DNA of 64,000 nucleotides from Camellia lanceoleosa. Taxonomy: Eukaryota; Streptophyta; Magnoliopsida; Ericales; Theaceae. The stretch is from assembly GCA_025200525.1 (NCBI GenBank), contig CM045761.1, forward strand, positions 59,731,438 to 59,795,437, given 5' to 3'. The notes beneath the pieces were generated by a model. That model was not told the origin of the DNA. It did no database searches and worked only from the letters and a program-made list of their open reading frames with translations. A program made the translations under genes and the position numbers. Shown piece by piece: positions 14,124 to 46,622 of this stretch (the first letter of the stretch is position 1; each line of letters begins with the position of its first letter).

Positions 14124-14178
14124 ATGATATACACATAGCCCAAGAAAAAAAGAAAAGCAGAAATTCGGACTCAACGTC

Positions 14179-14636: not shown

Positions 14637-14938
14637 GGAAATTTTGTCCCCGAAATTAAATCAACTACTGAAACAAAAGAATTTCTAGCAATCACAATTG
14701 TTCTAATAGATTCTCAAACAACATTTACTATCATCATCATGGTTCCCAAGTGTCCTAGTTACAATGTTAACAACAACAGTTCATGTACATGAAGCCTTCC
14801 AACAAGATAATAGCAATTCATAACAATTCCAATTATTATTATTATTATTATTATAAATAACAATACATGTTACAACACATGATCAACAACTTTGATACAT
14901 TTCTCTCTAACATTAGGGAATAATGCAAATTAAAATAA

Positions 14939-16968: not shown

Positions 16969-16999
16969 AGGCGTGGCTTGTCAAGAGAAGTCCCCTTAC

Positions 17000-18018: not shown

Positions 18019-18021
18019 AGC

Positions 18022-19695: not shown

Positions 19696-20112
19696 CCTAA
19701 TTAAGGGACAAGATAAACGATTTAGCACATAATCTCAAATGTGCTCGTGACTTCTCTCACACGTTTGACCACAACAATTCTATATATTTTCTACCATACA
19801 AACAATTCAATTCCATTCCACATAAGCACTTAGTCACAGAAGCACATAAGGATTATCTTTTGTGATGAAATTCGTCCCACAAAAAATCAAGAATTCTTAG
19901 TAGAATGAGTATTGATCAAGTACCCTTCTAACAAGACGTCAAAGAATTTAATAGGCGCAAACAACATCCCAAAAGTCCAATCCAATACCCATCTAGTCAT
20001 ATAAGCATGTTATCACATAGTCACAAAATACAAACACCTCCTAATCATGCGAAATGAACCCACTGTGGTACAACAACCACTTCTCACAAGCTCCAAGTAT
20101 TCAAACCTGGTA

Positions 20113-20124
20113 GCTCTGATACAA
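20113..20124 (-). other. Primer binding site (initiator tRNA-Met type)
   Basis: Minus-strand TTGTATCAGAGC differs by one base from TTGGTATCAGAGC, complementary to the 3' end of plant initiator tRNA-Met. It lies 2 bp from the LTR end. Confidence 0.75.
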
Positions 20125-20126
20125 AT

Positions 20127-21631
20127 TGTAACACCCCAAAAAAATATATATAATGATTATAACAATAACCATGGCTCTTAAGAGATACCGGAATGATTCC
20201 CAACACCTCTCATTACATGATCCCAGTGTTTATACAAAATAATCCCACATGCGACTATACATTCAAGGAATTCTAGCACATGAATCTATAGCATCAAAAA
20301 TAAATATATGCCCTTGTGGGCTTACAAGTTCCAAGGCTTAAGCCTGGTTACACAAAAGATGGTTCCTCAGACCCACACACATATAGCCCTTGTCTTACAA
20401 AATATAATCACCACAAAATAGAGCCTCGTGCTCTTAATACATACATCTACTCCCTAGTTTGGCGGGTTCACCACATCTTTTCCTACACCAAAATCCCATA
20501 GGGTGAGCAAAGCCTAGTAGAGAATTCTTAACAAAGTAAATACATTTTATACAAGTCCAAAGGAATGAAATGCATATGCCATGTTATGCTCTTTTGAAAG
20601 AGAATCACATTCTTCTCATTTTTTTGAAAACCATCATGCTCAATGATATTGTGATATCTTCAACAAATTTAAAGTTTATCAATTTAATTCTTGGGGCGGT
20701 TACGACTTAGGTAATCCGTAAGTTGGTGTATGCAAGTAGGCATAACTAGCACTACCAATACCCCACTTTACCAGTTGCTAATCGGAAGAGAAGTGGTACC
20801 TCCTCTGCACGTGTTTTCGGTCTTTCACCCCGGACACTCAGGCCAACTTAACCAATTTCATCTACACCTCCTATTTGGACTTACCAACGTATTTGTCCCA
20901 AAGCAATTCCATAAAAAGATTCATTCACAAACTTCTTTTCTCAATGCAAAAATTTCCAAACTCAAGTCAAAATGTGTAATAACCAATTAAAGGAATATGC
21001 AATGCAATAATTTTCAATGCCATATAACATCTCCTCATTTTCAAATACTTCAATGATAAGTCCATGACAATCAAAATTCCCATTTCTTCCTTTCAGCGCT
21101 ATTTCACAAAATAGCCACATGTTCAATAATTTTTTTTTAAAAGCAAAAAAAAAAAAAAAAAAAAAAAAGAACAAAATTTCCATCTCTCATATTTTTCTCA
21201 ACAATTTAGTCCTTACAAGACTACATTACCATCCATGTGCAACAACCTCCAAAATCACCACTTCTCATATTCCATGAAACTCATCATTTACATATATGTA
21301 TAAACAAGAAATTTTCCCATCTTTTATTCATTTTGGCACACAAAATAATGTATCAACAATGCCAACCAAGTTTTCTCAATATTCTTTTAAAAACCCCCAA
21401 TTTCTAAGTTTTTCCCAACCACACTACACACTCACAAATCTTTTGAAAGAATTTCATCAAAAAGATTTCTCCTTAGCCAATGTAATTCAAAAACCCTCAA
21501 GAAAATTATTTCATGAGAAACAAGGAGCAAATCCCCTCCTAAACTACCCACATTGTTGAGCCAAGCATCAATATTCAACATTCACAAGAGAAATTCAAAA
21601 ATCAACAATAAATCTTGCAAATATATATATA
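20127..21631 (-). repeat. 5' LTR of the minus-strand gypsy element, truncated
   Basis: It begins on the plus strand with TGTAACACCCC at 20127 and follows the left LTR to about 21631 (AAATCTTGCAAATATATA). The last 750 bp present in the left copy, including its U3 and promoter, are missing. The break coincides with the CTAG end of the candidate Helitron. Confidence 0.85.
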
Positions 21632-21660: not shown

Positions 21661-22862
21661 TACAATTAATTATGAGATTAAAATATAAATCAAAATTAGA
21701 GAGGAATGTATTCAAATTTTTTGTTTTTTGTTTTTTTTGTTTTCTTTTCAAAGAGTAGGTAATGAATTCACCGGAAGGAGAAAAATTCCTAAATGAAGAC
21801 ATGAAACTTAAATGAAACACCAATTAATTAGTAACTGAAATAAATTTCAGGAGCCCCCAAAATTAGGAACCTCCATGACTCCCAAAATGATGTAAACCAA
21901 TCATATATTTTAATTTTTTTTCTTTCCTTCCTGGACCAATCATAGGTGAGCGAGAGTTATAAAGTTGTATTTTTTTAAGAATATGTAGCATTTTTTGTAT
22001 TTTTAATAAAAAAAATCTTCCCAAGATAAATTGCACTTCCCCAAATTGCAATCTCTCAATTTTCTCACCCACTCTCTCTTCTTCTCTATTACCTCAATCT
22101 CTCTCCCCCAAAGACTGTAATGAGTTAACGTTGTGCACTAAAATGCTATGAACAACTGATAAAAAAAAAAATCAAATAACTCTAACTATCCATTTGGTTT
22201 GCTGAGATGAACACACAATGAAATTAGATCAAGGGACTGGAACAATAAAGCAAGGACCAAAACAACATCCATCCAGCAATATAGCTAAAGAGAGTGAATA
22301 TCCTCTGTCCAAAAAAAAAAAAAAAAACAATACGGGTATGTAAAAATAAAAAATTTAAAAAGCTGAGAGTACCTTTGCAAAATCCACCCCTCCTTTAGTC
22401 CCACGGGTCTGTGAGCTTTGGATCTGAAGAATAAATGGAGAAGATGACCAAGGAACTTTCAGGATATTGTAGACGCCCCATTTTTTACCGTCCTCAAGAC
22501 CTGGACGTCACCGCTTGAACACTCGGTGATTATCCATGTTCGTGTTCGTTTGGAGTTCCCGGAGTTCTCGGCTACGCGCCTTGCCTCAAGACCTCCGAAC
22601 TTGACCGTTTTGTGTCTGGTTTTGCACCAAACACTTGTGCTTTGCCTTGGAGGGGTAGGGAATGCCTTATGAGGCATCCCCACACACCACCGGCAGTGGC
22701 TAGAGGCCACTGGCTGGTTGGTGTTGCCATCGGCACTATATTGTGCCGGTCGGCACTCTTTTGTGCCGGTCGGCAGTAAATTTTGTCAAAATGACATTCT
22801 TTTGCGATTCTTTGGCAGTTCTTGCTTTTTGAGATATTTAGAAGCTGTATAGCATTTGTTTC

Positions 22863-22886
22863 CCCTCCATACACGTGTATGGAGGG
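22863..22886. promoter_or_regulatory. 24-bp perfect palindrome with central G-box
   Basis: CCCTCCATACAC followed directly by its reverse complement, so CACGTG sits at the centre. It ends 39 bp before the TATA box. The identical palindrome is at 37982-38005 in the other LTR at the same distance. A site for bZIP or bHLH factors is the likeliest reading. Confidence 0.8.
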
Positions 22887-22925
22887 ATGAGCTTTTGTTT
22901 TGCTTAGCTTGTAAGCTTTGTTGCC

Positions 22926-22931
22926 TATAAG
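22926..22931 (+). promoter_or_regulatory. LTR TATA box
   Basis: CCTATAAGAGAGGGCTCTCTTC; the same TATAAG is at 38045-38050 in the 3' LTR. RNA would start about 30 bp downstream, placing the hairpin cluster in the leader. Confidence 0.6.
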
Positions 22932-23379
22932 AGAGGGCTCTCTTCTCTTGGCTCAAGGGTTAGAAAAATTAGACATTTTTGGAGAGAAAAGACAGAGAAG
23001 AAGCTCTGGTTTTAGGTTAGAACTTGTGTATCTATCCTATCTCTCTTTTCCCCTCTTGTTTCTACACTAGGTGCTTTAATCTATATTATTGCACACAAGC
23101 ACCTAGTGTTTCACCTTCCTTTGGTTACTGAGGTTCTAAGGGCTGGTTCTTGAAGTTTTTGGTGGGATTTGAGCTCAAGGAAGCAACAACATCAACCTTT
23201 GTGAAGGTGGTCTTCAAGGGTAAGAAACTACCCCTTTTTACCCCATTTTTGCATTCCATTTTTGCATAGTTTAGAACTGTTTTTGTGCTTAGCATTTAAT
23301 ACAAAAAAAGTTCTGTTTTTTAGTCCTCTTTCTTGTTGGTTCAGAGTATTTTGTGCTTTGGGGAGGTTTGACCACCCTT

Positions 23380-23548
23380 AGGCCTTGAAAAGGCCTCATT
23401 TTGTGCTATTTTGTGAGAGCTCTGGGATTTTGGTGTTGGGGTCTCTTCACCACTGAAATCTTGAGGGATTTCAGTGGTGAAGATGATGCCTTGAAGTCCC
23501 AAGAAGGAGAGGGCCACCCCCTCCCCTTGTTGTCCTTGAAAAGGACAA
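23380..23548 (+). other. Cluster of three perfect stem-loops in the LTR leader
   Basis: Hairpin 1 (23380-23396): AGGCCTT, loop GAA, AAGGCCT. Hairpin 2 (23445-23482): 16-bp stem CTTCACCACTGAAATC with a 6-nt loop TTGAGG. Hairpin 3 (23530-23548): TTGTCCTT, loop GAA, AAGGACAA. All three recur unchanged at about 38497-38666 in the 3' LTR. They could act in RNA dimerisation, packaging or translation. Confidence 0.75.
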
Positions 23549-26232
23549 GTTTTGGCCTCTTGAGGAAGCCCATGTTCAAGTGTGTGTTGAGCATGCCATG
23601 ACTTTTTTTCATGCTTATTTTACCATGATATAACATGATTTTAAGTTGGTTTTGGTCCCTTATGCATGCTTAGCATAGTTGCCATGTAATGCCTTGTAAT
23701 GCCTTTAACATGTCTTAGGTTGTTAGCCTTTATTTGAGCATGATTTAGGCTTAGACTTATGAATGTTTTGTGCTTATTTTGCCATGCTTTAGGTCTGTCC
23801 ATGGTCGTTTGGATTGATTTTGGCATGTTTAGTATAGCTCCTTTGCATTTGTGGCTTGCCGGGCTTGTACGCCTCAAGTATGTGAATGTGTAGCTTGTGT
23901 TTCTTGCATCATTTCGGTGTTTTGGAACCACCTAACATGTAATTTCAGTCCCTTTGGCATGCTCATATGCTTGCCTAAGTCGCCTCTTTATTGCTTTGAA
24001 AGCATATGTTGTATGCCTCTTGTTTCGACCATTATGCATGCCTTTGAATTTGAGACCCTTAGGTGCCATCTAAGTGGTCCTTTGGACTTAGTTTTATGTG
24101 TTAAAACTCTGTTTTTGGTCACCTATTGCATGCCATGTATGGTTGTGTTAAGTGTAGTCCATTACCTCCTTGATGAGCCTTGAATACTTGGCCCCTTTTG
24201 CATGCATTTGCTTGTCTTGTTTAACATGATTTGACATCATTCTATAGCATGATTTTAAAGCTTATGATGCATGCTTAGTGTCCATGATATCCCCTTTCAA
24301 GTGTGCTTGAGGGTTGCTTACTTGGTGCCTAAGTGTTAAGTCTTAACATATGCATGTGTGTATGTGTGTTGGCTTTCATTTTTGGGCATTGTTGGCCACT
24401 GATTTTAGGCCTATTTGGGGTTGCCTAGATCATGTTTAGGACCATCATTTGCTTGGCTTGCATTGCCTCATGTTTGCTTGCATGCTTACATAAGTGTCTT
24501 GCCATGATCATGTTGCATATTAGCTAACATGCTTAGGTTGCATTGCACCTTGCATACGCGCCTTGTTCCTTGACTTGGTGATAGGAATTGGGCCTTGTTT
24601 TGTTTGTTTGGTTTACATGCATTTGACATGAAAGTGCAAAACTTGGTTCTTTGGGCCATCATGCATGGGAATGCGTGATTGGTGGCCCGAGAATCGAGGA
24701 ACATCATCCTTTGAGTCACAAACATGATAAGGAGTGTGTTTGGGGCATACATTGCTTGAATAACATTGCCATGCAAGATTTTGCCCTCTGCTTCTGTGAG
24801 TTGCAGGTTCTGCAGACATTCAGTGCCGATCGGCAACATTTAGTACCGGCCGGCATTAAATTATCAGCCGATGAGTTCATTTTGTGCCGGTGGCCACATA
24901 CTTCAGCCGGTGGTGTCTTCCCTCAGCCGATGATGTCCCTCAGTGTCCTGGGAGGCACTCCTGAGACTTTGGCAGTCTTCTAAGATGCAAAGCAGGGAAA
25001 ACAGAGGCAATCTAGGCATGGCAAAGGCCCGAGCAGACCCGAGCACGTCTTTGCATTTGGCTCTCCTCGAGGCGGTTTCTTCGCTTTTTCTTAGTTTAGT
25101 TAGTTTGTCAACTAATTAGGCTATTTGTAATATTTAATTAGCTTGCGTAGTTAATTATTTGTATTATTCTTTTGGTCCCTCCGAGCGAGGGCAAATTTGT
25201 AATAAGTGTGTGTGGGTGTGTGTATGTCTTCCAACCCCCATTTCTTTCTCCCTTTTATTTACCTGCTTATGATGGTAGATTAGGGAACGTTTATTTTAGC
25301 ATACCTTATGCAATGCATGCGTGCATCCATGCATTTGTTTACATGCACCGGGCTCGGTACATCATACAAACTGCATTGTATTTTTAATTCCAAATTGAAT
25401 ACGTGCATCGAATAAAGTGCATTTCACATGTCATCTTTAGGGTTAGCCGAGCCTACTCTAAATTGCATCTTCGCCTGTGTTGCATTAGCCATTTAACATG
25501 AACTAGGTCATGCATGTTTGCTAACTAGTTTCTTGTTTTGGCACGGAGTACGATGTAAGTATTTATGCTTTAGCATATCGCATGCGTGTGGATGTTAACA
25601 TAACAGTATGCTTACCATGCGGCTAAGTGCTTATATGAGATAAACTGCTTGAATGCCTGTGGGTGGAGGTTGGATTGCTTGAGTTGGAAAACTCATTGAA
25701 ATCCATGTTTTAGCCTACTTGCGAGTAGCAAATTCCAAAGCATTTTCAAAACTAACGGATATGCAATGATTATTTCCAAATTAGGCAACCTAGTCTATAC
25801 TTGTTTGCTGCGCGCATAACATAGTAATTCTAGGCTAATAATTGGAACAAGAGCACATAATGTTTTCAAAATCGGATATCACGATTAGTAGAGGCCGGTC
25901 TTCGGACCGGGCGAAAGGGGGTGCTCATAGCTGACCTTCCCCGATCGTACCCAAGCTCCCGAGCCAAGACCACTTTGGTGATGACGGACACGTGGCCTTG
26001 ACCGAGTCAGGGTTTCCTAAATTTCCCATTTTAAAATATTTAGGTGGCGACTCTGTATCTGGCAAAGCAGTCCATGTTTGGCACTACTTTTCAAAAATCT
26101 GTTTTCTCAAACGATTTGCCAGATTTGGACTCTTTGGTTCAAGATTAAGAACCGTGACATTTGAGTCCTTGAACTGTAGTGACCCCAATATGAACGGAAC
26201 GGGACTTAACCTCCGGCGTTCGGGACGCCTGA

Positions 26233-26250
26233 TTGGCGACTATTTGGGGA
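26233..26250 (+). other. Primer binding site
   Basis: TTGGCGACTATTTGGGGA directly follows the LTR. It resembles the TGGCGACTC-N-CTGGGGA sites common in plant Tat-type elements, thought to pair with a tRNA-Arg; three to four bases differ. Confidence 0.55.
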
Positions 26251-26937
26251 GTTAGAGAGCTTGACTCGAACTCGTGATATCCTATTTTGATCTCATTTAT
26301 GTGTCTCTTTGCATTGCATGTGCATTGGTGCGCCTAGGACACCGTGTTGGCCATCTGCTATTCCTGAGCGGTTTGCCGGAGGCTTGTCTTGTCAAGGCAT
26401 GTCCATAAAATTTGACCGGCTATGCTGCCAAGATAGAACACAAACCCGGGTTTAACGGCGCCTCCCTCTTTGACCATTCGACCTAGTGCATATTCGGATC
26501 CATAGTGACCATTCCAAATTAGGACAGGTTGCTTACCCGATATAGGTTGTTTGAAACCGCTGCGTGCGTAGTGAAACCCTAGCTCCTGACAAAATAGGAC
26601 AGGGAAACCCTACCCCAACATAGGGGTGTATTGGCTCTCTTTTACCTGTTATGTGCTTTTAGAGTGTATCTCTGCAGGGAACGATATATCGTTTGCAAGT
26701 TTGGGTATCGGCCCGAGGGCACCAAGATCGTGTTGTTGAGAATCAGCGTCTGCGGGTATCGCTCGATTTTGAATAGTGATTACGGGAACAAGTGTTGAGT
26801 AGAGTGCAGTTGTTCGACTGCACCCGTGTTTGATCTATTTGGGGCTGAAATACTGCTTGTTTTCCGTTTCAGTTCAGAGGTTCAGAGGGTCGATTCAGAA
26901 CAACTAGTGTCTTCTCCTTGCTGAGGCAGGACTGAAC
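26251..26937 (+). other. Untranslated leader between primer site and gag
   Basis: No ORF or repeat recognised; moderately GC-rich with ATAGGACAGG-type phrases repeated near 26522 and 26594. Confidence 0.4.
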
Positions 26938-27936
26938 ATGACGCAGAATTCAGAAGAGATCGTGGTCATGACGGCCGCGTTGAGTCAAGGAATTACCCCG
27001 CAGGATGAGACTACTATTGACGTGCCGCATCCACCCAGGTCGCCTGCCGCACATCCAATTTGGACCCCTCAACTATATCAGGCTCGTAAGCCTACTACAT
27101 TTGAACTAATGGGAATGATAGGTGATCTTCAAAGGTCCGTGGCGGGTCTCGCCTATGGAATGTCTGCTTCGCCACCAGCCGTACCATATGCCGGAGGCTT
27201 TATACCCCAGGAGCCCCCGCTACTGGGACGAATTGTAATTGAACTCAGCCAACCGGAGATGGCCTCCAGCTATGGCAACGACGCATCAAACCAAACTCTA
27301 GATCAGGCTGAGGCCAGAGACAAAGGCAAGATGAAGGCAGATGCCGACCCTATCGAACAACTGCTGTGGGCAGTAGAGGCTTTGAAAGCCGGGGGAATGA
27401 ACAAGCAACAGATATCCGCAGTTACGTCAAAAGCTGTGGAGGATGCTTTCCCCACTCTGCCTGAGGGCAATCCCAGTCAATCAGAGAATCGAGATAGGCC
27501 CCGTCATGCCAAGACAGTTCTTCCCGCTCCCAGCCTTGCATCCGGAAAGGATTAGAAACCCAAGGCCGCACCCGCCGATCCGTTCGCTAGTGCATCTAGC
27601 AAGAGTGCTCAGACTCCAAAGTACCTGCCCCGAGGCCGCAGGGTCTTCCATGCTCTCTACATTCCATTGTCCAAGGCACTTCAAATCCTTGCCGAGAGGG
27701 AACACCTTAAACCCCTGGAGCCTCGGCCTCTCCCGAAGAATCTCCCTGCCATACATGATGCTGCCCTGTACTGTGCGTACCACCAGCAGACTGGCCATGC
27801 TACCGACAATTGTTTCCGCCTCCGGCACGAGGTGCAAGATTTGATTGACAACGAGGTTATCCTCCCGCCTACCTCAGCAAAGTCCGTTACCACTCAGTTG
27901 TTGGATTTTGAGGATACAGACACTGCAAGTATGTAA
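26938..27936 (+). pseudogene. gag: gag remnant of Tat-like element, capsid domain missing
   Basis: One frame of 332 codons starting MTQNSEEIVV is broken only by a TAG at 27553-27555. The N-terminal part includes KPTTFELMGMIGDLQRSVAGL, a proline-rich stretch and an acidic/lysine segment. After the stop comes the conserved C-terminal block: PLSKALQILAEREHLKPLEP, then LPKNLPAIHD and the zinc knuckle CAYHQQTGHATDNC with FRLRHEVQDLIDNEVI. This C-HH-C knuckle with an R-H-x-I/V-Q-D-L-I tail is typical of Tat/Athila-type Gag. The roughly 200-residue capsid domain expected between the two halves is not seen, so Gag is internally deleted. GC content is higher than the surroundings. Confidence 0.75.
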
Positions 27937-30900
27937 TCAGAGGGTGGACCGCCTGTGGGCAGTGCCTGGCACGTTTTTGGATGTGGCGTTTGGCACACAT
28001 TTTTGGGCATCTGTTAATGTTAGTTTTGTAAAATTCTGACTTGGGTGTCGAGTCAGTCTTTTATTTTGTTTTGAGTCTGTCTCTTTGTATGGAGTCAGTC
28101 TTTTTGCTTACAAGGTCTGTCTTGTTGTAATAAGTCAGTCCCTTTTGTATAGTATACCAGGTGATTTTGGGGTTGTTGCCTCAAACACCGTTTTGTCTTG
28201 TAATTAGTTGCTTTTGCTATTTGAGCCTGTTGCTGCCGAGGAGCCGGTTATACCACCAAATCTGAATGAAACAGTTGTGGCTATCATGTGCCGTATTTAT
28301 TGCTATTTGAGTTAGCCGTGCCGGAAGATGTGAATGGAACGACAGTGCATTTCGCCTACTCTCTTGTGCCTTAAACATCGTCATAATGACCTAAGCTTTT
28401 CATAAAACCCCTTTTTTTCGAACACTGTGGTGATGAAAACGAAGAGGAAGTAATTCCTCGGGTTTTGTAAAATTTTGATCATTTTGAGAGAAAGAGAGGC
28501 CTGCTAAGCTTTTAATGAATGAAATCATGCTCGTCGGCGTGAGCACTGAGAAGGATCCTGGTCCAATCCAGACTGGTTCCACACTATCTTCAACGCGAAT
28601 GATTTGTCGCTTTCTTAAAAACTTTCAAAAACAAAATGTCTTGCGCAGTCTTGCGAAGACCGGTGTGGAACCGCTCTTGAGATTGTGCAGCCCAGGATCG
28701 CTCTCGGTCTCAAGTTTCAATTCATCTGTTGTAAACTGGACCCGTTCAAAATGTTCAGTACCATGAAACGCCTGTGTGGCCCATTTCGAGGCAGCCCTCG
28801 AGCAAGAGGCGTCAAAGTTAGATCAAGGAAATCAGATCTCACCAAGCAAAGCTCGAGAAGCAATCGTGATGGACTTTTCCTGCAAATCAATACGATAGTC
28901 GCTCTCCTGGATACGGAGAGGCTTCAATCTCAAAACCATTTGGCATGGGCTTGCTCCACTTTTACCCTTTGAGAGGCTCGCTGGACTGAAAACCCGGAAG
29001 GGCGGCCTAGGCAAAAGTTAGAGCAAAGAAAAAAAAAAAATTACGAAGAGAAATAATGCAAAAAGAAGCAAAAAGAAAAGAAAAGAACAAAGAATAGCAA
29101 AAGGAAAGAAATAAAAGAAATAAAAAAAATGTAAAAGAAAAGAAAAAAAGAAAAGAGAAGAAAAACAAAGCTCGCAAGGTCGAAAACCTGCAACAGGCGC
29201 CTTGGCAAAAGTTAGAGCCTAAATAGTGAAGGTTAAAATACCCGAGTGTACCTTAATCGGAACTACGTAAAGCTTGATTCCCATGTTTGGGATACGTAGG
29301 CAACTTCATCCTGAAGTCCAGCCCCCAACGCTTCCATAGCGTCTCAGTCCATGTCATGGTTTTGATCACTTGTGCCTCCTCCGAATCCAATGTCTCGATT
29401 GCAGCAACCCAGAACTACGTGATTAACTTCCTCTTGAAGCCAAACCACCAACACCTTCCAGGTGACTGTGTCCACATATTGATTCAAACCGTCTTCGACT
29501 CCTCCGCGTCCGAGGGTCCGATCGTCATCAACAAGGATTGGCTTATAACATGCCGCGGCATCATCCAAACAAGGGGCAACTTTCCGTTGCCATGCATTGC
29601 CATAAGTCGCCCTGAGTTACCGTCCAAACCAGGGGCAACTTTCCGTTGCCTTATCCCCCTTTAAGCCAGGGGCAATTTTCCATTGCCTCCGATCCGAGGT
29701 TGCATATCTCGAGGGTAAGTTCTATGCTCGTCAAGCATCGACTGTTTGCAAAAATAGTTTTTGAAAATTTTTACTAAGGTTGACTGTTCTCTCGAAAACT
29801 ATTTCATTTTCAAAATTGGACCATGTTTGGACCCAAAAAAGGAGAATTTTCAGTGCTCGCAGCCTGATTCACATGATTTTCAAATCAAGAATCGAATAAG
29901 TGTGTTAATCCGACTCTCAATTTTTATCAAAACTGTTTTAGAAAACAAAAAATGGTCAAAATGACGAACTAGGGGCACGATTGAGTCAGGTCTTCTGTCT
30001 TTCCCCCGCTAACATGCTTGCCAACAGGGCACCCTATTCACCAGAAGAAATAGCCGTGAGCTAACAGTGTTGGGCATGAATCTACGATTTCCTATTCATC
30101 CATTAATCACCCTGGGGAGGGATTGAAAAATGAGAGATTAAAGAATAGAGAGGAGCAAGTTGAGCGAAAAGTGAGAAAAGGGTTTTGAGAGAAAAACCAA
30201 GCATGAGGCCCGAGTGATGTGAGTATCACAAATTAGAAAGGATGGGAATAATACCCGGAGGAATTGGCTCCTCGAGATTTGAGGTCTTTTTGTAAACATG
30301 TCTGTGCGTCGTGTCTTTTTGATTTGTCGGTCTTGATTTTGGCTTTGAGTCTTGTCCGTACATGTCTCGTTCTTTTAGGTTGTGTGCCTTTTATTTCTTT
30401 GTTTGAATCTGTCTCACTGTGTTCTGTGGTAGGCTCGATACCCTGGTTGAAAACCCTTCCTTATTTAAAAAAAAACTCGTTTGTGCTCAGAATGCTGTGC
30501 CACTCTCTACATTCGTGCGAAGCAAGAGAAGGGAAGAGAAAATTTGGGACATCCGAGTGTGTTTCAACTGCAACCGTATCAGTTTTGTGATCCGTCTTGT
30601 CAGATTGGGGCTATTTGTTTAGGGTTTGCTGTGTGCAGAATGAACCGAATGCTGTGTTATGGGCTATATACAGGTCAATCCCCAGTAGAGTATGGGCTGT
30701 ATATCCCGTTTGAGCAGTGGTTTGTATGAGTTGTTTTGCTGATTAATTGGTTGACTATCTGATTACTACAGTACAATTGCTCAATTTTCAGACAACAGAT
30801 CAATATCATTTACATTTGAGGTGTAACATGACGCAATGCAGTGCAAAGTATGAAAGATGCAGATATGTACAGATATAACATTTTTTCAGACAAAAAGTTT

Positions 30901-30976
30901 GTTTCATTTCATATCATCTTTTTCAAGTACATAGTTTTGGAAACAAAAATGCCTCTGGCAAGATAAAGTACGCTAT
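27937..30976. other. Noncoding interior where pol would be expected
   Basis: Three kilobases lack any RT, protease, RNase H or integrase motif in six frames. Visible are a purine-rich stretch (29020-29165), paired phrases AGGCAAAAGTTAGAGC / GGCAAAAGTTAGAGCC (29009 and 29201) and three near-copies of CCAGGGGCAACTTTCCGTTGC (29565-29690). This looks like the spacer of a non-autonomous derivative. Confidence 0.6.
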
Positions 30977-31369
30977 CTACCAACAAAAGGAAAAGTACAA
31001 AAAAGAAATAAAAGAAACAAAGAAAGTCCGGGTCATCAAGATCATCAATGGCCTCATGGGGATCTGGTTGCCGCCCTCTTCTGGGCGAAGTCCAGGAGCA
31101 TCACCAGAAGTGTCACTGTCTGGGCCCGAGCCCGAGCTGCCCCCGATCTCCTCATCGGATAACTCCGCCTCCTCGGACTCGCCGTCGAATCGAGCCCGCG
31201 AGTTGCTCCGGCGTAAGCACGCCTCCTCGTGCGGGAATATCCTGCCATCCCGAGTAGAAATGGGAGGTCCAGATGGAGCGCCACCACCCACTGGAGGAAT
31301 CGGGAAGGGAGGCTGAAAAGCACAAAAGGCAAATGCATCAGTATACATGAAGCAGTTTATCAATGCAGA

Positions 31370-31690
31370 AAGTACAATGTATGAATGCCGTGAGCAGTTT
31401 ATCAATGCAGAAAGTACAGTGTATAAATGCCGTAGCGGTTTATCGGTCACGATGTATGAACACGAGTATGAATGCCGTGAGCGCTTAAACAAAGATGTAT
31501 GAGTACAGAGTATGCAAGCCGTGAGCAGTTGAAACAGTGCAGAATGCAGTGTATGAGTACAGTACATGCATGCCGTGAGCAGTTGAATCAGTGCATAATC
31601 CAATGTATGAGTGCAGTTTGTGAGCGCCGTGAGCAGTTGAATCAGTACAAGATGCAGTGTGTGAGTACAGTGTATCAAGTGCCGTGAGGG
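31370..31690. repeat. Tandem repeat inside intron 5 of the antisense gene
   Basis: About six loose copies of GCCGTGAGCAGTT-(G/T)A-ATCAGTGCAG-AATGCAGTGTATGAGTACAG, roughly 40-65 bp each. Not coding. Confidence 0.7.
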
Positions 31691-33689
31691 CTGGGTATCC
31701 AGTGTTGTGTTATGCATCAGATTATGCGAAGCAGTTTGTGTATGGTTTGAAGCTATGACAGAGAGAACATACCGGAAGGCCGTAAAAGGCTAGGAACTCG
31801 AAGGTCCGCTGCAGCATCCCCGTCATGGAGGCATTCATCTCCAGTAACTGCCGGGTGTATCCAGAAGACGCCTGCAAGGGAATCAGATGCATCAATATTC
31901 TGTGGAATATCAAATAAACTGAAATGAAATAACTGCATGAAGCAAGAACACATACCGAGGTAAGTGGGGACACCGACAAACTCGTGATCACCGCCGGAAG
32001 GGCGAAGGGGATCGAGGTCGCCCATCCGACCCGAAAGTCGGCGAAGAAGGCAAACCCAATCGCCTCCCGTCCTCTCTGGACTCCGCCCCTGCCGCGGACT
32101 CGAGCCCTCCTCGGCGCTCCTTCTCCTACTCCTGCTCCGGCCGCTGGCGCCGCAGGTCTCTCTCTCTCAGCTCGGGGACCACCGCTCAGAGGCGGCATGA
32201 TGAAGGTCCAGACGTACTCTGAGTAATCGCCCTCGCCTCTGTAGCCGTCTGCCTCCCAACCGATGGTGTAGTCCGCCATCTGCTCGGCGGTGAAACGCTC
32301 GGTGTCCCTCATATGCTCAGGAGGGTGCACCGGGACTATTTGCTCAGGTAAGCCCAGGATCTGATGCAAGAAGCGCTCGCCCAGGTACCAAGCCCGACAG
32401 ACCGGGCCCTCCAGTAGAATCCGGTAACGCGAGGTCTCGACGGCGCCGGCAAACCGATCCCGCATCATCCCTGGCAAAGGAGCCCACGGCTGCCAGGTGA
32501 TCTAAAATTGAAATACAGTTTGTTACCTACTGGTATTGCAAATATACAGTGGAAAAGCGAAGCTTAAATGAACTGCAAGTAAAACATACCTCTGCGGGAG
32601 TGATGGTGTCGAAGTAGCGGCGGAAGAAGCTGAAAGTCTCCCGCGGCCTCCGCGTGCACCTCCCGTCATAGCGGCGTGAGAAGGGGATGACTAGAGGAGT
32701 CTCCGCTCCCAGACTGCCCACTGGGAAAGTATGCATAGACCCACAACTGCAAGACAGATGTCAGTATGACTATCGGATCAAGTAGAATACAGAATAAAGC
32801 AGAAATAACAGAGCCGTGTATTGTGTATTGTGCGGAGTGTACAGTGTGAGTAGTGCGGTCGAACAAGCAAAGTATGTGTGTGTGTATGCAGATACTGATC
32901 CGTGAAACAGACTACAAGCAGTGCATGATGAGTACGAAAATGTAGAGCGAAATGTAAAGCGGAAAAGGAAATGTACCTCCCAAGACGCCAAGGCCCCGAA
33001 AGCAACCGTTCTGCCAGGAGGCGGAGACTCATATATAGTCAGAGAGGCGGCGAGCCGCACCACCCCAATCGCAATGCAAGCTATCTCTGACATCCACCAT
33101 GCCGAGAGGCAGAGAGGAACTGTGTTCGCCCGATCGGCGAAAATCGTCGTCCCAAACAGGAACATGAGGAAGCCGCGTGCGTATCTATCTACGGCCTCCT
33201 GAGTCATCGGGGCTGCATCAATGAGGGCAGGCTGGACCCTGAACTGCACCTCGAACTAGGAGTAGCAGACGAAACCTGGACGCGCAAGAGGTGGCGCCTC
33301 GCCAAGCAAATAGATCTGAGCGGTGGTCCACTCATCCATATCGATGTCGAAGGGGATCGGATCACCCCCCACCCCGATGCCTGTGAGCATCGAGAAGTCG
33401 TAGGGAGTCATCGTCATGTCTCCCGCCATGGGTAGGTGGAATGAATCGGTGGTGTCCCACCACCTCTGCCAGTAAGGCTAGAAGAGGCTCGCATAAGCGA
33501 AGTCGGGTTAGACCCCTGCAGAAAGCGCCGAAGCCGGCCTGGTCCACGATACGTCGAACCGCCTCGGGAAGCTTCGTGTACCAATCTCGAGCTGTGACAT
33601 TCCCATACCCGCGGATGGTATGGGAATCTCCCTGTTTTCAAACAAATAGCAGCAAAGCAATATGAAATGTACAATTTTGAAGAAACAGT

Positions 33690-34010
33690 GGTTCAGTGCC
33701 AATCTAGCATGTGTGCAAGTTTTTTAGATTCAAGCAGATACCGGGTGCCGGTGTGCTTACGGTGAACTACAACGTGTGATGCGTCAGCGTGTTTGAGGGG
33801 TTCAGTGCAAATATGGCATGTGTGCAAGTTTTTTAGATTCAAATAAGTGCTGGGTGTCGGTGTGCTTACAGTGAACTACAACGTGTGATGCGTCAATATG
33901 TTCGAGTGGTTCAAGATAGATATGGCATGCGTGCACATTTTCATATTCAAGCAGATGCTGGGTGTTGGTGAGTTTGTAGTGAAATGCGGTGTGTGCCATG
34001 TGTTTGGGTG
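33690..34010. repeat. Tandem repeat (about 120 bp, 2.6 copies) inside intron 1 of the antisense gene
   Basis: Repeated blocks: TGGCATGTGTGCAAGTTTTT, TAGATTCAA, GGGTGCCGGTGTGCTTAC, GTGAACTACAACGTGTGATG, CGTCA. Copies start near 33705, 33820 and 33938. Confidence 0.8.
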
Positions 34011-34685
34011 ATTGAGGCTAGTGCAGTGTGTGTGCATGTGTCCGTCTTAAACAGATATCAATTGTAAGCATAATTGCAATCGATTACAGTGAACAGTGTA
34101 TCAGAATAAAGCAGTTAAAGAACGAAAACGACTTTGACAGTTAACAGTTCTACATTGCAGAAAGTAAAACAGGGAAGAGTGTTACCTCAGAAGTGCCAAA
34201 GGATAGGTGAGAGGTCGGCTCGCGTAGGAGGAGCTCCGGGTCCAGTGCTCGGTCAAAGCTGCGAAAATGGCGGAGTTTATCCGGTGGTAGCACATGAATC
34301 GCCGGGCGGTATGTCACCGGGCCGAAAGGACGCTCGCTCAACGGGAGAAGCTCGACCCCGGGATCCATCTCATGATCCGGGGGAGTCCCGACGTGTGGAA
34401 TGTCATCAGCCATGATAATGGTAGTGACAAAATGGCCGGAAAATCCGGAATGCGGAAAGCCAACCGAAAAAGTCGACCCCGAGTGGGCCGAAAATGGCCG
34501 GAAGATGAAAAGGCACGGAAATGAAGAGTAAACCGAGGGGAACAAGTCCCGAAAAAGAGGAAATAGCAAAAGAGGCACCGAAACAAAGATTTGTTTGGTT
34601 GAAAATGTGCGAAACGCGGTGAACTTCGCGAATCGAACGACGAAAATGGCGCGAAAACACAAAGAAATGGCGAAATGAGGAGAGA

Positions 34686-34765
34686 AAAAAGCTTTAGAGA
34701 GAGAGAGAGTTGATTTTCGGCGATGGAAAAGTGAGAAAATAGGGTTGGAAACCCTATTTTAAAAG
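34686..34765 (-). promoter_or_regulatory. Putative promoter and leader of the antisense gene
   Basis: On the minus strand a TATA-like CTTTTAAAATAGGG (about 34766-34753) precedes a repeated CCCTATTTT block and a (CT)n tract (34710-34697), then about 290 bp of leader before the ATG at 34413. Typical of plant genes but unproven. Confidence 0.45.
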
Positions 34766-34799
34766 ACCCGAGGTGAAATGTCAAAACTGTCCCCGATCA

Positions 34800-34915
34800 G
34801 CAACTTTTGGCCGGTCGGCACTATTATGTGCCGGTCGGCACAATATTGTGCCGATGGAACTTTTATGCAGCCGGTGGCCACCTAGCGCAGCCGGTGATGT
34901 TCCCACAGCCTTGTT
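34800..34915. repeat. CCGGTCGGCA motif cluster upstream of the antisense gene
   Basis: GGCCGGTCGGCAC, GTGCCGGTCGGCAC, GTGCCGATGG, CAGCCGGTGGCCACC, CAGCCGGTGATG in series. The LTRs carry the same series at 22728-22776 and 24826-24930 (and 37860-37890, 39940-40050). Confidence 0.75.
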
Positions 34916-35194
34916 TAGGCCATGTGGGTAATTTCTGGTCTTCATAGCTCAAGAAAGTGCAAGAAAGTGAATCCCTGATGCTCAACCGGCCTCTGTTTTG
35001 ACCTCGGACCGTGTCTTCTGTGCGTGGCACCCAGATTCAAGCAAAGATTGTATCCTTTTGTATCCTTTGTCTTTTACAATATTCAAAAATTGCCCCGTGT
35101 GCGTTGCACGCATCGATCACATTGTTCGGCGCGTCGCATCGCGCCGTCTTCTGCACCGTTTTGCATTGTCGTGTGGCATGCGTGTCATACTTGC

Positions 35195-35665
35195 ATTTTA
35201 TTTTCCATTCAAATGAGGTATGCGTGCCTCATTTTACATTTCATTGCATCTCGAGGTACGCGTGCCTCGTTTTGCATTTCATTTTCCATTCAAATGAGGT
35301 ATGCGTGCCTCATTTTACATTTCATTGCATCTCGAGGTACGCGTGCCTCGTTTTGCATTTCATTTTCCGACTAATGAGGTATGCGTGCCTCATTTTATAT
35401 TTCATTGCATCTCGAGGTACGCGTGCCTCGTTTTGCATTTCATTTTCCATTCAAATGAGGTATGCGTGCCTCATTTTGCATTTCATCGCATCTCGAGGTA
35501 CACGTGCTTCGTTTTGCATTTTATTTTCCGTCTAATGAGGTATGCGTGCCTCATGTCCATTTCAGTTTTGCATCTTGAGGTACGCGTGCCTCACTTTGTA
35601 TTTCATTTGCATTTCGTTTTGCATTTCGCATCCATGAGGTATGCGTGCCTCATCTTGCATCTCAT
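35195..35665. repeat. Minisatellite, about 82-bp unit, about 5.5 copies
   Basis: Each unit has two halves: ATGAGGTATGCGTGCCTCAT and CTCGAGGTACGCGTGCCTCG, each followed by TTTTGCATTTCATT. The halves are themselves related, so the basic period is about 40 bp. Open frames rich in ACLILHFIASRG words across it are a product of the repeat. Tat elements are known for tandem repeats in this 3' region. Confidence 0.9.
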
Positions 35666-36355
35666 TTTGCATTCCATCGCGCTATTTTGCGCACCTCATT
35701 GTTTTTCGCCCCCGGTCTGGCGAGACCTTAAACACGCACGGTCTAGTAGACCTTAAATCCTTAGGAGGTGCAAGACCTTCATTCGCGTTGTTTGAACGCA
35801 TCACGTTGTTTAGCGCATTGCATTAGCTTGTGCATTGCGTCCCATTCGCGCTATCTTGTGCACCTCATCGGCACTTGTTAGTGCGTTGTATATCATTCGC
35901 ACGGTTTAGCGTATCTCATTGCATTTTGCATGCATTCCAAATAGCTTATTCGCGCATCTCATTGCATTTACATGCATTCAATTGCACTTTTGCACATTGC
36001 ATTGTTCTATGCATCACGGTCTAGGAGACCTTAAATCCTCTGAAGGTGCAATTCGCCGGTGTTTGTCGTGTCTAAACGACTTCGGTGGTCTGGTAAAGCC
36101 ACCACTGTGTTCTGATGTGTTCCTAGGAGACCAATAGGGACGGTGAAAACTAGAGTTCGAACGGCTCATGCCTAGAACGCAAAGGTTCGGGATTTCCGAG
36201 ACTAAAGTCTGGTTTAAATACCCAGAGGGTGCACCCTCGGCTTGAAATCTGTATGGAAGCCCCATAGGTTGAGGCGGCGTGTCACGCCTCGATTGAATCT
36301 TGAACCAACCTAGTGTATCGCCCTGTTGGGAGAATAGGGAAAACTGCAATCGCAG
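35666..36355. other. 3' noncoding region with GGTCTAGNAGACC duplicates
   Basis: Two copies of the phrase CACGGTCTAG(T/G)AGACCTTAAATCC at 35735 and 36014, each followed by an AGGTGCAA. TTGCGCACCTCATTG-type words extend the minisatellite theme. No gene. Confidence 0.5.
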
Positions 36356-36600
36356 GCATTGCATCATACTGCATTGTCATGCATCATTGTGAATATTGCA
36401 TATGTCATGCATTTCAAAAAAACAAAAACAAAAAAACATACTGCATTGTCATGCATCATTGTAAATATTGCATATGTCATGTATTTCAAAAAAAAAAAAA
36501 AACCATGCATATGTCATGCATTTCATTGTAATATAGCGCATATGTCATGCATTTTCTGTAAACATGCACATTCCATTGCATATTGTACATATTGCATTTT
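36356..36600. repeat. CATGCAT-rich tandem repeat
   Basis: Two 70-bp copies of CATACTGCATTGTCATGCAT, then CATTGT(G/A)AATATTGCATATG and TCATG(C/T)ATTTC plus an A-rich tail, followed by shorter TCATGCATTTC words. Noncoding. Confidence 0.75.
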
Positions 36601-37577
36601 AGTTGTATCATCTACCGCATCATCTTCCATCTATGGCTTGCACCTTTCCTTGTTGAGCTTGGTCTGGTATGTGCCCTTACTTTTCACGTTGAAGCACAGT
36701 TCTGCATGTGTACGCACCTATTCCTTGATAAACTTGGTTTGAGGGTGGCGGCACCTTTTCTGTGTTAAACATGGCTTGTACGTGTACATGCCTTTCCTAG
36801 GCAAAATACGGTTTTGGCTACAGGCCATATCCATTTCTATTACATTGTAGTGTAATTATTGCATCCAGCATTAGGATCATTATTCTTTCCTCAGCGGGTT
36901 GTCACCCCACTTATGTCATTCCACCCAATACTTGTTCTTGTGTCCGTCTACATCACTCATAGTTCAGACATCGTTCTATGGTAGACGGACTCGTTACTTC
37001 CATCAATCTATTTGACATATGTGTGGTTTCGAACCGCTCATGATTGAATCATGATTCGATTGCTCTGCATTTAGTCTGCATTGTTTCAATTGCATTGCAT
37101 TATCGTTTGCATTGTTTATACTTCGTTTTGTATATATTGCATATCATTTTGCATTCATCATTGCATTGTCATGCATATTGCTAACGATATTGTACCTGTT
37201 AAGTTTACTTTCTTTTCAGGCACGATATTGTATGTACGGTTCATTTGAGGCCGGTGCAACCGGACGAGCCGCACAGGTATCGTATCCTCCGCGTGAGATG
37301 TTTTGAGAATTGCATAATTCTCTTACATCCTTTCTGCATTGTAGTGTAGATTGACATATGCTAGCTTACAACTGTTGCATGCGTGCTTCATTACAGCTTT
37401 CTTTGCATGATCATAAGTTATGCTCGGCTTCTTGCATTGTCTTGCATTTTGCCCTTGCCTTCGGGCGCATATCTTGTTTGTCTTTCATGTTTGTCCAAGT
37501 CTTCGGCCTTGTCAAAAATGGGTCGTCTCTGGGCTTTGACATTCACTCCCGTCATTGTTATGACTTCTGAGTTCTGT
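36601..37577. other. 3' noncoding region of the Tat-like element
   Basis: Pyrimidine-biased sequence with many TTGCATT words and no credible ORF, leading to the polypurine tract. Confidence 0.45.
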
Positions 37578-37591
37578 CAAAGAGGGGCAAC
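37578..37591 (+). other. Polypurine tract
   Basis: CAAAGAGGGGCAAC immediately before the LTR start TGTAGACACC. Confidence 0.75.
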
Positions 37592-40500
37592 TGTAGACAC
37601 CCCATTTTTGACCGTCCTCAAGACCTGGATGTCACCACTTGAACACTCGGTGATTATCCATGTTCGTGTTCGTTTGGAGTTCCCAGAGTTCTCTGGCCAC
37701 GCCTTGCCTCGGGACCTCCGAACTTGACCGTTTGTGTCCGGTTTTGCACCAAACACTTGTGCTTTGCCTTGGAGGCGAGGAATGCCTTATGAGGCATCCC
37801 CACACCACCGGCGATGACTAGAGCCCACCGGCTGGTTGGTGTTGCCATCGCCTCTGTATTGTGCCGGGCGGCACTCTTTGTGCCGGTCGTGATAAATTTT
37901 GTCAAAATGACATTCTTGCTTACCGATTCTTGTGCGATTGCTTTTTGAGATATTTTGAAGCAGCTGTATAGCATTTGTTTCCCCTCCATACACGTGTATG
38001 GAGGGATGAGCTTTTGTTTTGCTTAGCTTGTAAGCTTTGTTGCTTATAAGAGAGGGCTCTCTTCTCTTGGCTCAAGGGTTAGAAAAATTAGACATTTTTG
38101 GGGAGAAAAGACAGAGAAGAAGCTCTGGTTTTAGGTTAGAACTTGTGTATCTATCCTATCTCTCTTTTCCCCTCTTGTTTCTACACTAGGTGCTTTAATC
38201 CATATTATTGCACACAAGCACCTAGTGTTTCACATTCCTTTGGTTACTGAGGTTCTAAGGGCTGGTTCTTGAAGTTTTTGGTGAGATTTGAGCTCAAGGA
38301 AGCAACAACATCAACCTTTGTGAAGGTGGTCTTCAAGTGTAAGAAACTACCCCTTTTTACCCCATTTTTGCATTCCATTTTTGCATAGTTTAGAACTGTT
38401 TTTGTGCTTAGCATTTAATACAAAAAAGTTCTGTTTTTTAGTCCTCTTTATTGTTGGTTAAGAGTGTTTTGTGCTTTGGGCAGGTTTGACCACCCTTAGG
38501 CCTTGAAAAGGCCTCATTTTGTGCTATTTTGTGAGAGCTCCAGGATTTTGGTGTTGGGGTCTCTTCACCACTGAAATCTTGAGGGATTTCAGTGGTGAAG
38601 ATGATGCCTTGAAGTCCCAAGAAGGAGAGGGCCACCCCCTCTCCTTGTTGTCCTTGAAAAGGACAAGTTTTGGCCTCTTGAGGAAGCCCATGTTCAAGTG
38701 TGTGTTGAGCATGCCATGACTATTTTTCATGCTTATTTTACCATGATATAACATGATTTTAAGTTAGTTTTGGTCCCTTATGCATGCTTAGCATAGTTGC
38801 CATGTAATGCCTTGTAATGCCTTTAACATGTCTTAGGTTGTTAGCCTTTATTTGAGCATGATTTAGGCTTAGACTTATGAATGTTTTGTGCTTATTTTGC
38901 CATGCTTTAGGTCTGTCCATGGTCGTTTGGATTGATTTTGGCATGTTTAGTATAGCTCCTTTGCATTTGTGGCTTGCTGGGCTTGTACGCCTCAAGTATG
39001 TGAATGTGTAGCTTGTGTTTCTTGCATCATTTCGGTGGTTTGGAACCACCTAACATGTAATTTCAGTCCCTTTGGCATGCTTATATGCTTGCCTAAGTCG
39101 CCTCTTTATTGCTTTGAAAGCATATGTTGTATGCCTCTTGTTTCGACCATTATGCATGCCTTTGAATTTGAGACCCTTAGGTGCCATCTAAGTGGTCCTT
39201 TGGACTTAGTTTTATGTGTTAAAACTCTGTTTTTGGTCGCCTATTGCATGCCATGTATGGTTGTGTTAAGTGTAGTCCATTACCTCCTTGATGAGCCTTG
39301 AATACTTGGCCCCTTTTGCATGCATTTGTTTGTCTTGTTTAACATGATTTGACATCATTCTATAGCATGATTTTAAAGCTTATGATGCATGCTTAGTGTC
39401 CATGATATCCCCTTTCAAGTGTGCTTGAGGGTTGCTTACTTGGTGCCTAAGTGTTAAGTCTTAACATATGCATGTGTGTATGTGTGTTGGCTTTCATTTT
39501 TGGGCATTGTTGGCCACTGATTTTAGGCCTATTTGGGGTTTCCTAGATCATGTTTAAGACCATCATTTGCTTGGCTTGCATTGCCTCATGTTTGCTTGCA
39601 TGCTTACATAAGTGTCTTGCCATGATCATGTTGCATATTAGCTAACATGCTTAGGTTGCATTGCACCTTGCATACGCGCCTTGTTCCTTGACTTGGTGAT
39701 AGGAATTGGGCCTTGTTTTGTTTGTTTGGTTTACATGCATTTGACATGAAAGTGCACAACTTGGTTCTTTGGGCCATCATGCATGGGAATGCGTGATTGG
39801 TGGCCCGAGAATCGAGGCACATCCTCCTTTGAGTCACAAACATGATAAGGAGTGTGTTTGGGGCATACATTGCTTGAATAACATTGCCATGCAAGATTTT
39901 GCCCTCTGCTGCTGTGAGTTGCAGGTTCTGCAGACATTCAGTGCCGATCGGCAACATTTAGTGTCGGCCGGCATTAAATTATCAGTCGATGAGTTCATTT
40001 TGTGCCGGTGGCCACATACTTCAGCCGGTGGTGTCTTCCCTCAGCCGATGATGTCCCTTAGTGTCCTGGGAGGCACTCCTGAGACTTTGGCAGTCTTCTG
40101 AGATGCAAAGCAGGGAAAACAGAGGCAATCTAGGCATGGCAGTGCAATTAAGCGAGCAGACACATCTTGCATTTGGCTCTCCTCGAGGCGGTTTCTTGTT
40201 TTCTTAGTTTAGTTAGTTTGTCAACTAATTAGGCTATTTGTAATATTTAATTAGCTTGCGTAGTTAATTATTTGTATTATTCTTTTGGTCCCTCCGAGCG
40301 AGGGCAAATCTGTAATAAGTGTGTGTAGGTGTGTGTATGTCTTCCAACCCCCATTTCTTTCTCCCTTTTATTTACCTGCTTATGATGGTAGATTAGGGCA
40401 TGTTTATTTTAGCATACCTTATGCAATGCATGCGTGCATCCATGCATTTGTTTACATGCACCGGGCTCGGTACATCATACAAACTGCATTGTATTTTTAA

Positions 40501-41354
40501 TTCCAAATTGAATACGTGCATCGAATAAAGTGCATTTCACATGTCATCTTTAGGGTTAGCCGAGCCTACTCTAAATTGCATCTTCGCCTGTGTTGCATTA
40601 GCCATTTAACATGAACTAGGTCATGCATGTTTGCTAACTAGTTTCTTGTTTTGGCACGGAGTACAATGTAAGTATTTATGCTTTAGCATATCGCATGCGT
40701 GTGGATGTTAACATAACAGTATGCTTACCATGCGGCTAAGTGCTTATATGAGATAAACTGCTTGAATGCCTGTGGGTGGAGGTTGGATTGCTTGAGTTGG
40801 AAAACTCGTTGAAATACATGTTTTAGCCTACTTGCGAGTAGCAAATTCCAAAGCATTTTCAAAACTAACGGATATGCAATGATTATTTCCAAATTAGGCA
40901 ATCTACTCTATACTTGTTTGCTGCGCGCATAACATAGTAATTCTAGGCTAATAATTGGAACAAGAACACATAATGTTTTCAAAATCGGATATCACGATTA
41001 GTAGAGGCCGGTCTTCGGACCGGGCGAAAGGGGGTGCTCATAGCTGACCTTCCCCAATCGTACCCAAGCTCCCGAGCCAAGACCACTTTGGTGATGACGG
41101 ACACGTGGCCTTCGGCACCGAGTCAGGGTTTCCTAAATTTCCCATTTTAAAATATTTAGGTAGCGACTCTGTATCTGGCAAAGCAGTCCATGTTTGGCAC
41201 TACTTTTCAAAAATCTGTTTTCTCAAACGATTTGCTGGATTTGGACTCTTTGGTTCAAGATTAAGAACCGTGACATTTGAGTCCTTGAACTGTAGTGACC
41301 CCAATATGAACGGAACGAGACTTAACCCTCCCGGGGCGTTCGGGGACGTCTACA
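37592..41354 (+). repeat. 3' LTR of the Tat-like element
   Basis: 3,763 bp, nearly identical in arrangement to the 5' copy, with the palindrome at 37982, TATAAG at 38045 and the hairpins at 38497-38666. Ends GGGGACGTCTACA, followed by GGTAT. Small indels separate the two LTRs mainly in the first 350 bp and the last 60 bp. Confidence 0.85.
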
Positions 41355-46316: not shown

Positions 46317-46622
46317 CTCGAGCGAGACTTTTGTCGCTCGAGCGAGAGTTGAGTTTTGTGTCTGGTCACTCGAGCGAGAAGTCCTTCGCTCGAGCTTGCG
46401 TCTGTGTCTGGTTCTGGACCTGAGAGTTGCATTTCTTGGCTCGAGCGAGCGAGGTGTATGTTTTGAGTTTCTTCGCTCGAGCAAGAATTTTGTCGCTCGA
46501 GCGTGCTTCTGGTTGCAGACCTGGAGCTTTGTATTGTTGGCTCGAGCGAGACTTTCTTCACTTGAGCGTGGTTTCTTTGTGTCTGGTCGCTCGAGCGACC
46601 AATCCTTCACTCGAGCGAGCCT
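46317..46622. repeat. CGCTCGAGCGA motif cluster (5' LTR)
   Basis: Eleven CTCGAGC or near-identical motifs, spaced about 20-45 bp. Confidence 0.85.

Follow-up and report, generated by a model that had tools for sequence, protein, structure and literature searches.

A multi-exon PMD gene lies antisense within a large LTR element

The stretch of DNA analysed here (the window) comprises 64,000 nucleotides of Camellia lanceoleosa (C4:59731438-59795437, in a searched genome of 3.0 Gb) and holds a large long terminal repeat (LTR) element, within whose LTR pair a multi-exon gene of the plant mobile domain (PMD) type occupies the minus strand at 34413-30977. This copy of the gene is a pseudogene, whichever reference is used. 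We give a probability of about one half to the reading that it belongs to a large, pol-less, Ogre-like LTR family of Camellia, whose antisense PMD gene has decayed in this copy, and that the intact protein would be a self-directed anti-silencer similar to VANC21, which is encoded by VANDAL21, a Mutator-like element (MULE) and DNA transposon of Arabidopsis. The parts of the gene, in the order of its own reading, are the following.

34186..34413, minus strand: PMD exon 1, start codon ATG at 34413, reading frame unbroken; 64 of 76 residues shared with P0002, a predicted protein of C. sinensis
33632..34185, minus strand: intron 1, GT-AG, holding a 109-bp tandem repeat at 33690-33970 (Tandem Repeats Finder, TRF)
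32977..33631, minus strand: PMD exon 2, the PMD core, broken by 4 frameshifts and 2 stops when aligned with P0002, with which it shares 172 of 216 aligned residues
32590..32746, minus strand: PMD exon 3, with 1 frameshift; 44 of 52 residues identical to P0002
31956..32501, minus strand: PMD exon 4, with 4 frameshifts against P0002, 3 against P0005 and none against P0003, which is shorter; 130 of 180 residues shared with P0002
31773..31871, minus strand: PMD exon 5, reading frame unbroken; 25 of 33 residues shared with P0003
31313..31772, minus strand: intron 5, holding 54-bp and 42-bp tandem repeats at 31351-31688 (TRF)
~30977..31312, minus strand: PMD exon 6, an acidic tail whose stop position is uncertain; 34 of 93 residues identical to P0003, the alignment ending at 31022

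Exons 1-4 correspond end to end to residues 1-76, 77-298, 299-352 and 353-541 of P0002, and exon 5 to residues 514-546 of P0003, also a C. sinensis predicted protein. Together with splice sites found in 29 other copies, this collinearity bears out the original prediction of a multi-exon antisense PMD gene inside an LTR pair. The donors of introns 1-5 are kept in 29, 28, 29, 27 and 26 of the 29 copies and the acceptors in 27, 20, 26, 23 and 3; all five donors and the acceptors of introns 1 and 3 exceed the background dinucleotide identity inside introns 1-4 (0.83, ~24/29), and the acceptor of intron 5 is mostly unaligned, partly since the fetched flank stops there. All introns had been said to be in phase 0, which holds for the junctions of the family, but in the window exon 3 is 157 nucleotides long and exons 2 and 4 shift frame internally.

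The family profile PF10536 matches the window copy in a single piece, in exon 2 (27.3 bits, E 2.6e-6). The profile search that had been proposed as a check thus gave a match, but the PMD motifs previously called clear score under the Pfam cut-off of 34.9. The relative P0002 reaches 107 bits, above that cut-off, and so belongs to the PMD family, and PF10536 matches 100/100 of the A3 relatives at E<=0.1. A host gene unrelated to the element was considered and ruled out by the matches of the C. sinensis gene model P0001, which also matches the minus strand of the 3' LTR and the DNA from LTR to PMD, in order, from 41133 down to 34186. Nor do the exons occur only in such genes, since in other copies they are linked to gag at the same distance.

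The gene had been taken for a working one, its lesions having gone unseen. In a frame-tolerant alignment with P0002, exons 1-4 contain 0, 4, 1 and 4 frameshifts and 0, 2, 0 and 0 stops, which adds up to 9 frameshifts and 2 in-frame stops. P0003 and P0005 are without parts of exon 4 or exon 2, and alignment with them shows 5 frameshifts and 1-2 stops; how many are counted at the variable end of exon 4 varies with the reference. If the lesions were all younger than the insertion, the gap rate of the LTR pair, scaled by hand to ~1.7 kb of exon, would predict ~2-6 frameshifts per copy vs the 5-9 seen. An extra intron in exon 2 that would rescue the frame was rejected: it would be ~38 nt by eye, which is too short, and relatives code through the same stretch. 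The 29 other copies were picked by likeness to window exon 2 (40 of 5817 first-look candidates scored, giving 30 loci with the window), and the proposed search for intact exons found none of them (0/29) free of lesions; the least damaged, L015 and L035, have one frameshift and one stop each. The stretch 33631-32747 of the window, with exon 2 (88.6%) and intron 2 (81.9%), diverges more from these 29 copies than introns 1 and 3 do (~95%), and looks as if it were derived from another subfamily via recombination.

The carrier element and its copies

The element has the following further parts.

22468-41354: whole LTR element, with an LTR pair of ~3.76 kb each
22468..26232, plus strand: 5' LTR, starting TGTAGACG, end approximate; 96.7% identical to 37592-41344 over 3779 columns
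26234..26251, plus strand: primer binding site (PBS), decayed, adjoining the 5' LTR end
26938..27936, plus strand: short gag-like open reading frame (ORF), with one in-frame stop in the window copy; tblastn of P0160 gives 87.7% over 334 aa
37579..37587, plus strand: polypurine tract (PPT), approximate, AAAGAGGGG near CAAC|TGTAG, before the 3' LTR
37592..41354, plus strand: 3' LTR, TGTAG...TACA, pairing with the 5' LTR

A TG..CA LTR pair, a target-site duplication of 4/5 bases (GATAT before the 5' LTR, GGTAT after the 3' LTR), a PBS and a PPT mark the element as an LTR retrotransposon, and the claim that LTRs, PBS and PPT had been kept without pol was upheld. The Kimura two-parameter distance of the LTR pair is 0.033 in a global alignment that includes a few flanking bases, with 13-14 gaps, and BLAST gives 26 gap openings. 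The PBS of a second copy (L069+L070, the copy of L015) lies at the same place and reads TGGCGACTCTGCTGGGGAT, which we take to be of the tRNA-Arg type, as in Ogre. Passages of a survey of plant LTR elements give the Ogre PBS as tRNA-Arg type (PMC9289625).

The gag traces of the original prediction were described too weakly: gag forms a defined ORF, ~335 aa long, which is found again in other copies and has one stop here. Its relatives P0160 and P0163-P0166 are 329-363 aa long and end where the second gag piece of the window ends; the ORF has a finger-like motif, C-x2-H-x4-H-x4-C (by eye), and no Pfam family matches at E<=0.1 in 11 relatives. For pol, the internal region gave a best E of 0.19 with five chromovirus-type queries, that is, none was found; because these queries are not Tat pol, a short decayed Tat pol remnant could be missed. 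The query P0064 did match both neighbouring elements (E 0 and 5e-167), four plus-strand ORFs of the internal region after gag gave nothing relevant in Pfam scans, and no match to pol was found in copy L015. PF04195, the domain of TRP28 elements, is not among the matches of the ORFs scanned or of the A3 relatives, and viral contigs gave no match. An element without pol offers neither a phylogeny of reverse transcriptase or integrase nor the second RNase H that would mark the Ty3/gypsy Tat/Ogre clade, and the tentative label Ogre-like rests on the PBS type, the LTR size (3.76 kb) and the PMD itself.

First-look searches returned 5817 candidates for exon 2, 6207 for gag and 8559 for the mid region, of which only 40 were scored in each case; these counts suggest thousands of family copies. 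The gag-to-PMD interval is 5.04 kb in the window and 5.04, 5.00 and 4.92 kb in L012, L015 and L022. Besides L022, the mid region lies 2.38-2.53 kb from PMD in seven copies and 1.25 kb from gag in two.

A protein search (7992 candidates scored) yielded 66 proteins at E<=0.001; 65 of them are Camellia proteins and 1 is from Rhododendron, and many are near full length; such gene models need not all be intact, because gene predictors can step over lesions. Four Camellia models, P0059, P0062, P0063 and P0065 (thaumatin-like, LOV1-like nucleotide-binding leucine-rich repeat, PF05600 and VPS41), contain PMD-gene-like pieces; these may be chimeric predictions or parts of elements that annotation has taken into host genes. 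In the Rhododendron simsii model P0130, a PMD-like stretch (71% to P0054) is combined with a phosphatase domain, PF00149, an arrangement that is reminiscent of the PMD-PP7 fusions of Brassicaceae and grapevine (PMC7156037). Five intronless open frames of 626-782 codons (L001-L005), with very strong PF10536 scores, are possibly host MAIN/MAIL-type genes of Camellia. A second PMD clade (P0036-type, L091-L094) is abundant in the same genome, and many of its listed copies are without stops in the main exon.

Two more LTR elements of chromovirus type flank this one, at 12367-21631 and ~46116-59072, with RVT_1, RNase H, RVP_2, SH3_Tf2-1 and a weak chromodomain; they are mutually inverted and ~71% identical over 3.6 kb. 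Self-BLAST also reveals tandem arrays at 8670-10510 and 61706-62122 of the window.

Past selection on the protein

As read from substitutions between copies of this one genome, the PMD protein is shown to have been under past purifying selection, old branches being constrained and recent ones not. The comparison of nonsynonymous and synonymous divergence (dN/dS) that had been proposed gave a median pairwise value of 0.427 (406 pairs, 29 copies, window excluded); codon assignment followed the likeness to P0002, and codons within three of a frame break were masked. Methylated CpG and CHG mutate faster, so 0-fold and 4-fold sites were compared within the same base context: the ratio is 0.379 overall (0.350-0.404 in 25 bootstrap draws over copies), 0.341 outside CG and CHG, and 0.300 for transversions. 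Pairwise dN/dS drops with distance from 0.64 to 0.33, and the regression has a slope of 0.21 and an intercept of 0.043, the slope being only descriptive because pairs share history. A selected role had been proposed for the gene; the extra gene does show past selection among copies, but the window copy is dead.

The constraint at 0-fold relative to 4-fold sites points to the protein, and thus speaks against a role at the RNA level, in which minus-strand transcription itself would matter as a source or sink of small RNAs regulating the family, with a secondary part for the protein. Passages of a study in tea report 175 PHAS loci at PMD genes, which have low expression, and 21-nt phased small interfering RNAs (phasiRNAs) that target PMD transcripts (PMC10673657). 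These favour such a role, but the phasiRNAs look like host repression, and we hold the idea to be very improbable.

Predicted fold and the 16-bp motif array

The PMD protein of a relative is predicted to fold like VANC21, at a sequence identity of 8%; a first structure model, from a shallow alignment and with a pLDDT of 47, was not used. BFVD gave no match at E<=0.001. A sequence search of the PDB with A3 returned 56 chains up to E 10, VANC21 not among them, and the best matches (E 0.0014, 0.013) fall in the tail. DUF1985 (PF09331) is weakly present in 47/100 A3 relatives, with a best E of 1.9e-5. We do not claim membership of the VANC family, because DUF1985 stays below the family cut-off and the carrier is an LTR element, not a VANDAL MULE.

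Between the 3' LTR and the PMD gene, the element has tandem short motifs in its own noncoding DNA, as the VANC family does.

35215..35651, no strand assigned: candidate binding array of 11 near-palindromic 16-bp sites, GAGGTAYGCGTGCCTC, ~0.8 kb 5' of the PMD start codon

The sites, counted with up to 3 substitutions, are mostly 38 and 42-43 bp apart, two different spacers alternating. The array of copy L069+L070 has 18 sites; at least 2 sites occur in 18/20 further copies (194 sites in total, in a 901-bp stretch with up to 2 substitutions), and shuffles gave none. On C1 up to 85 Mb, both of the listed exon-2 copies lying there (L028, L032) have an array 1.6-1.7 kb upstream. Genome-wide there are 1292+1746 exact site pairs and 0 of the reversed pattern, and the motif also occurs with further spacer families. 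Relative to the spacers, its asymmetric T/G pair is sometimes flipped, as if the dyad itself were conserved. The P0036 clade has another array, of the GAACACRCAG type, within 1.5 kb 5' of the main exon (14-33 sites, 4/4 loci), which is found in 0/29 window-type loci; conversely, the 16-bp motif is absent from 3.7-kb stretches of the same four P0036-type loci. For VANC21 and VANC6, too, passages of PMC10398659 describe tandem motifs that differ between the two, each lying in the targets of the respective family.

Such family-specific arrays are left unaccounted for if the protein is a decoy that mimics MAIN/MAIL1 and disturbs the MAIN/MAIL1/PP7L complex by protein contact, not by binding its own DNA. 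The PMD homology fits a decoy, as does the finding that MAIN and MAIL1 silence transposable elements (TEs) together with PP7L (PMC7156037), and passages of PMC5418596 and PMC8616336 already guess at an anti-silencing use of PMD by TEs. By BLASTP, however, only two of the five long intronless frames with PMD in this genome match P0002 (20% and 28%), and we consider a decoy improbable.

Discussion

The working that we propose for the PMD protein is a VANC-like hypothesis built on the predicted fold. In an intact copy, a promoter inside the element would transcribe the minus strand, and the introns would survive retrotransposition, since they are not spliced out of a genomic RNA to which the gene is antisense. 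The protein would enter the nucleus and bind the near-palindromic motif that is repeated in its own family; silencing at these sites would be removed or blocked, in the manner of VANC21 acting on the VANDAL21 tandem motifs. Gag and enzymes given in trans by an autonomous partner would then copy the family, and individual copies would later decay, like that of the window. The modulation of host silencing suggested originally is thereby plausible, on the structural argument of a VANC21-like predicted fold.

Several points weigh against this proposal. A shared fold does not show shared function, and the comparison with VANC21 gives a Foldseek TM by query of 0.37 and an hhalign probability of 23.6%. 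DUF1985 has no match in P0002 at E<=0.1, short of the VANC-family cut-off, and is absent from 5/5 intronless PMD frames of the same genome. The MAIN/MAIL PMD proteins promote silencing. Copies L083 and L086 are without any site in the 901-bp stretch fetched; two PMD clades with two motifs are a sample of two, the second motif having been picked from the same loci; and tandem arrays, common in Retand elements according to passages of PMC11963269, may serve other ends. Introns 2 and 4 have acceptors no more conserved than the background, and window exon 2 has a median identity to other copies of 88.6%, introns 1 and 3 of 95%. The assignment of codons by likeness to P0002 may lower dN a little, and the median dN of 0.084 is about the median intron divergence (0.092, introns 1 and 3), which dS (0.212) exceeds; the selection claim therefore rests on synonymous sites and not on introns, which as a yardstick would show no constraint. 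We trust synonymous sites more, as a judgement, because they are located in the same GC-rich exons. All 30 copies examined (30/30, the window and 29 others) are broken. One same-strand gag/mid pair, C6:96746095-96763563, is 15.2 kb apart vs the usual 1.26 kb; it is unexplained, and could be a nested insertion, two elements or a longer member, a longer pol-bearing member being possible.

The broken copies and the closeness of dN to intron divergence would also suit a passenger, that is, a PMD gene which is an inert remnant in a non-autonomous element, its conservation having been imposed earlier in an autonomous gag-pol-PMD ancestor or sister and being uninformative on the pol-less family. A pol-bearing sister was not sought by sequence, and the 15.2-kb pair leaves room for one. 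Against this, copies with pol-less spacing belong to the set that keeps most splice sites and in which dN/dS falls with distance, and many Camellia gene models have a near full-length PMD. We regard a passenger as unlikely.

The proposed self-directed anti-silencer has a wider form, which we put forward tentatively and somewhat short of an even bet: PMD and VANC/DUF1985 would be one superfamily of DNA-binding chromatin factors, with which transposons undo silencing and hosts impose it, and the pol-less Camellia family would have survived by means of a short gag, a VANC-like factor and a self-specific array, borrowing enzymes. If true, a transposon weapon and a host silencing pathway would be linked by descent. 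Gypsy elements, MULEs and the host silencing proteins MAIN/MAIL1 all contain PMD, a domain without an assigned function. A VANC21-like fold would give it a concrete activity open to testing, namely sequence-specific binding of DNA, and offers a reason for its presence in so many elements of Ogre type, that of self-directed anti-silencing. With the family-specific array, it turns an old guess into a precise, testable mechanism, and the array is the exact DNA for binding tests.

PMD in Ty3/gypsy elements, antisense extra ORFs and the anti-silencing idea are already known and not new here. Steinbauerova et al. in 2011 reportedly described PMD in Ty3/gypsy elements. Passages of later work place it in these elements, with 57% of Ogre elements carrying it (PMC6317226), find the PMD-A clades exclusively in Gypsy (PMC5418596), call it the commonest atypical domain in plant LTR consensuses (PMC9289625) and describe antisense extra ORFs (PMC7264820, PMC11963269). 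The 2019 survey, in the passages that give its method, counted single ORFs of at least 250 codons, so it could miss an intron-split PMD gene (PMC6317226). Our literature search found no publication joining DUF1985 and the plant mobile domain, although the publication on the VANC21 structure PDB 9lnj could already note the likeness; publications naming both MAIL1 and VANC21 treat them as separate subjects in the passages covered.

The nearest known systems are the PMD-bearing Ty3/gypsy elements of the Ogre clade (PMD-A1/A2, Ikeda et al. 2017), with which the Camellia family has in common the giant, Tat-like LTR element, PMD as its extra ORF, the length of the LTRs, the tandem repeats and an Ogre-like PBS; the Camellia copies tested differ in being without pol and in having an antisense PMD gene with five introns. 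In Retand, Grande and RIRE2 the accessory gene is likewise antisense to gag-pol, between pol and the 3' LTR, with tandem repeats near, but their domain is TRP28/PF04195 and only some of them lack coding domains; the word intron is absent from the Retand paper (PMC11963269), whereas the Camellia PMD gene has introns. VANC21 of VANDAL21 differs in sequence (8% identity), in its carrier, here an LTR element, and in its DUF1985, which P0002 is without. The host proteins MAIN and MAIL1-3 (PMD-C) share the PMD domain and the context of TE silencing with the Camellia protein, but are encoded by host genes that promote silencing.

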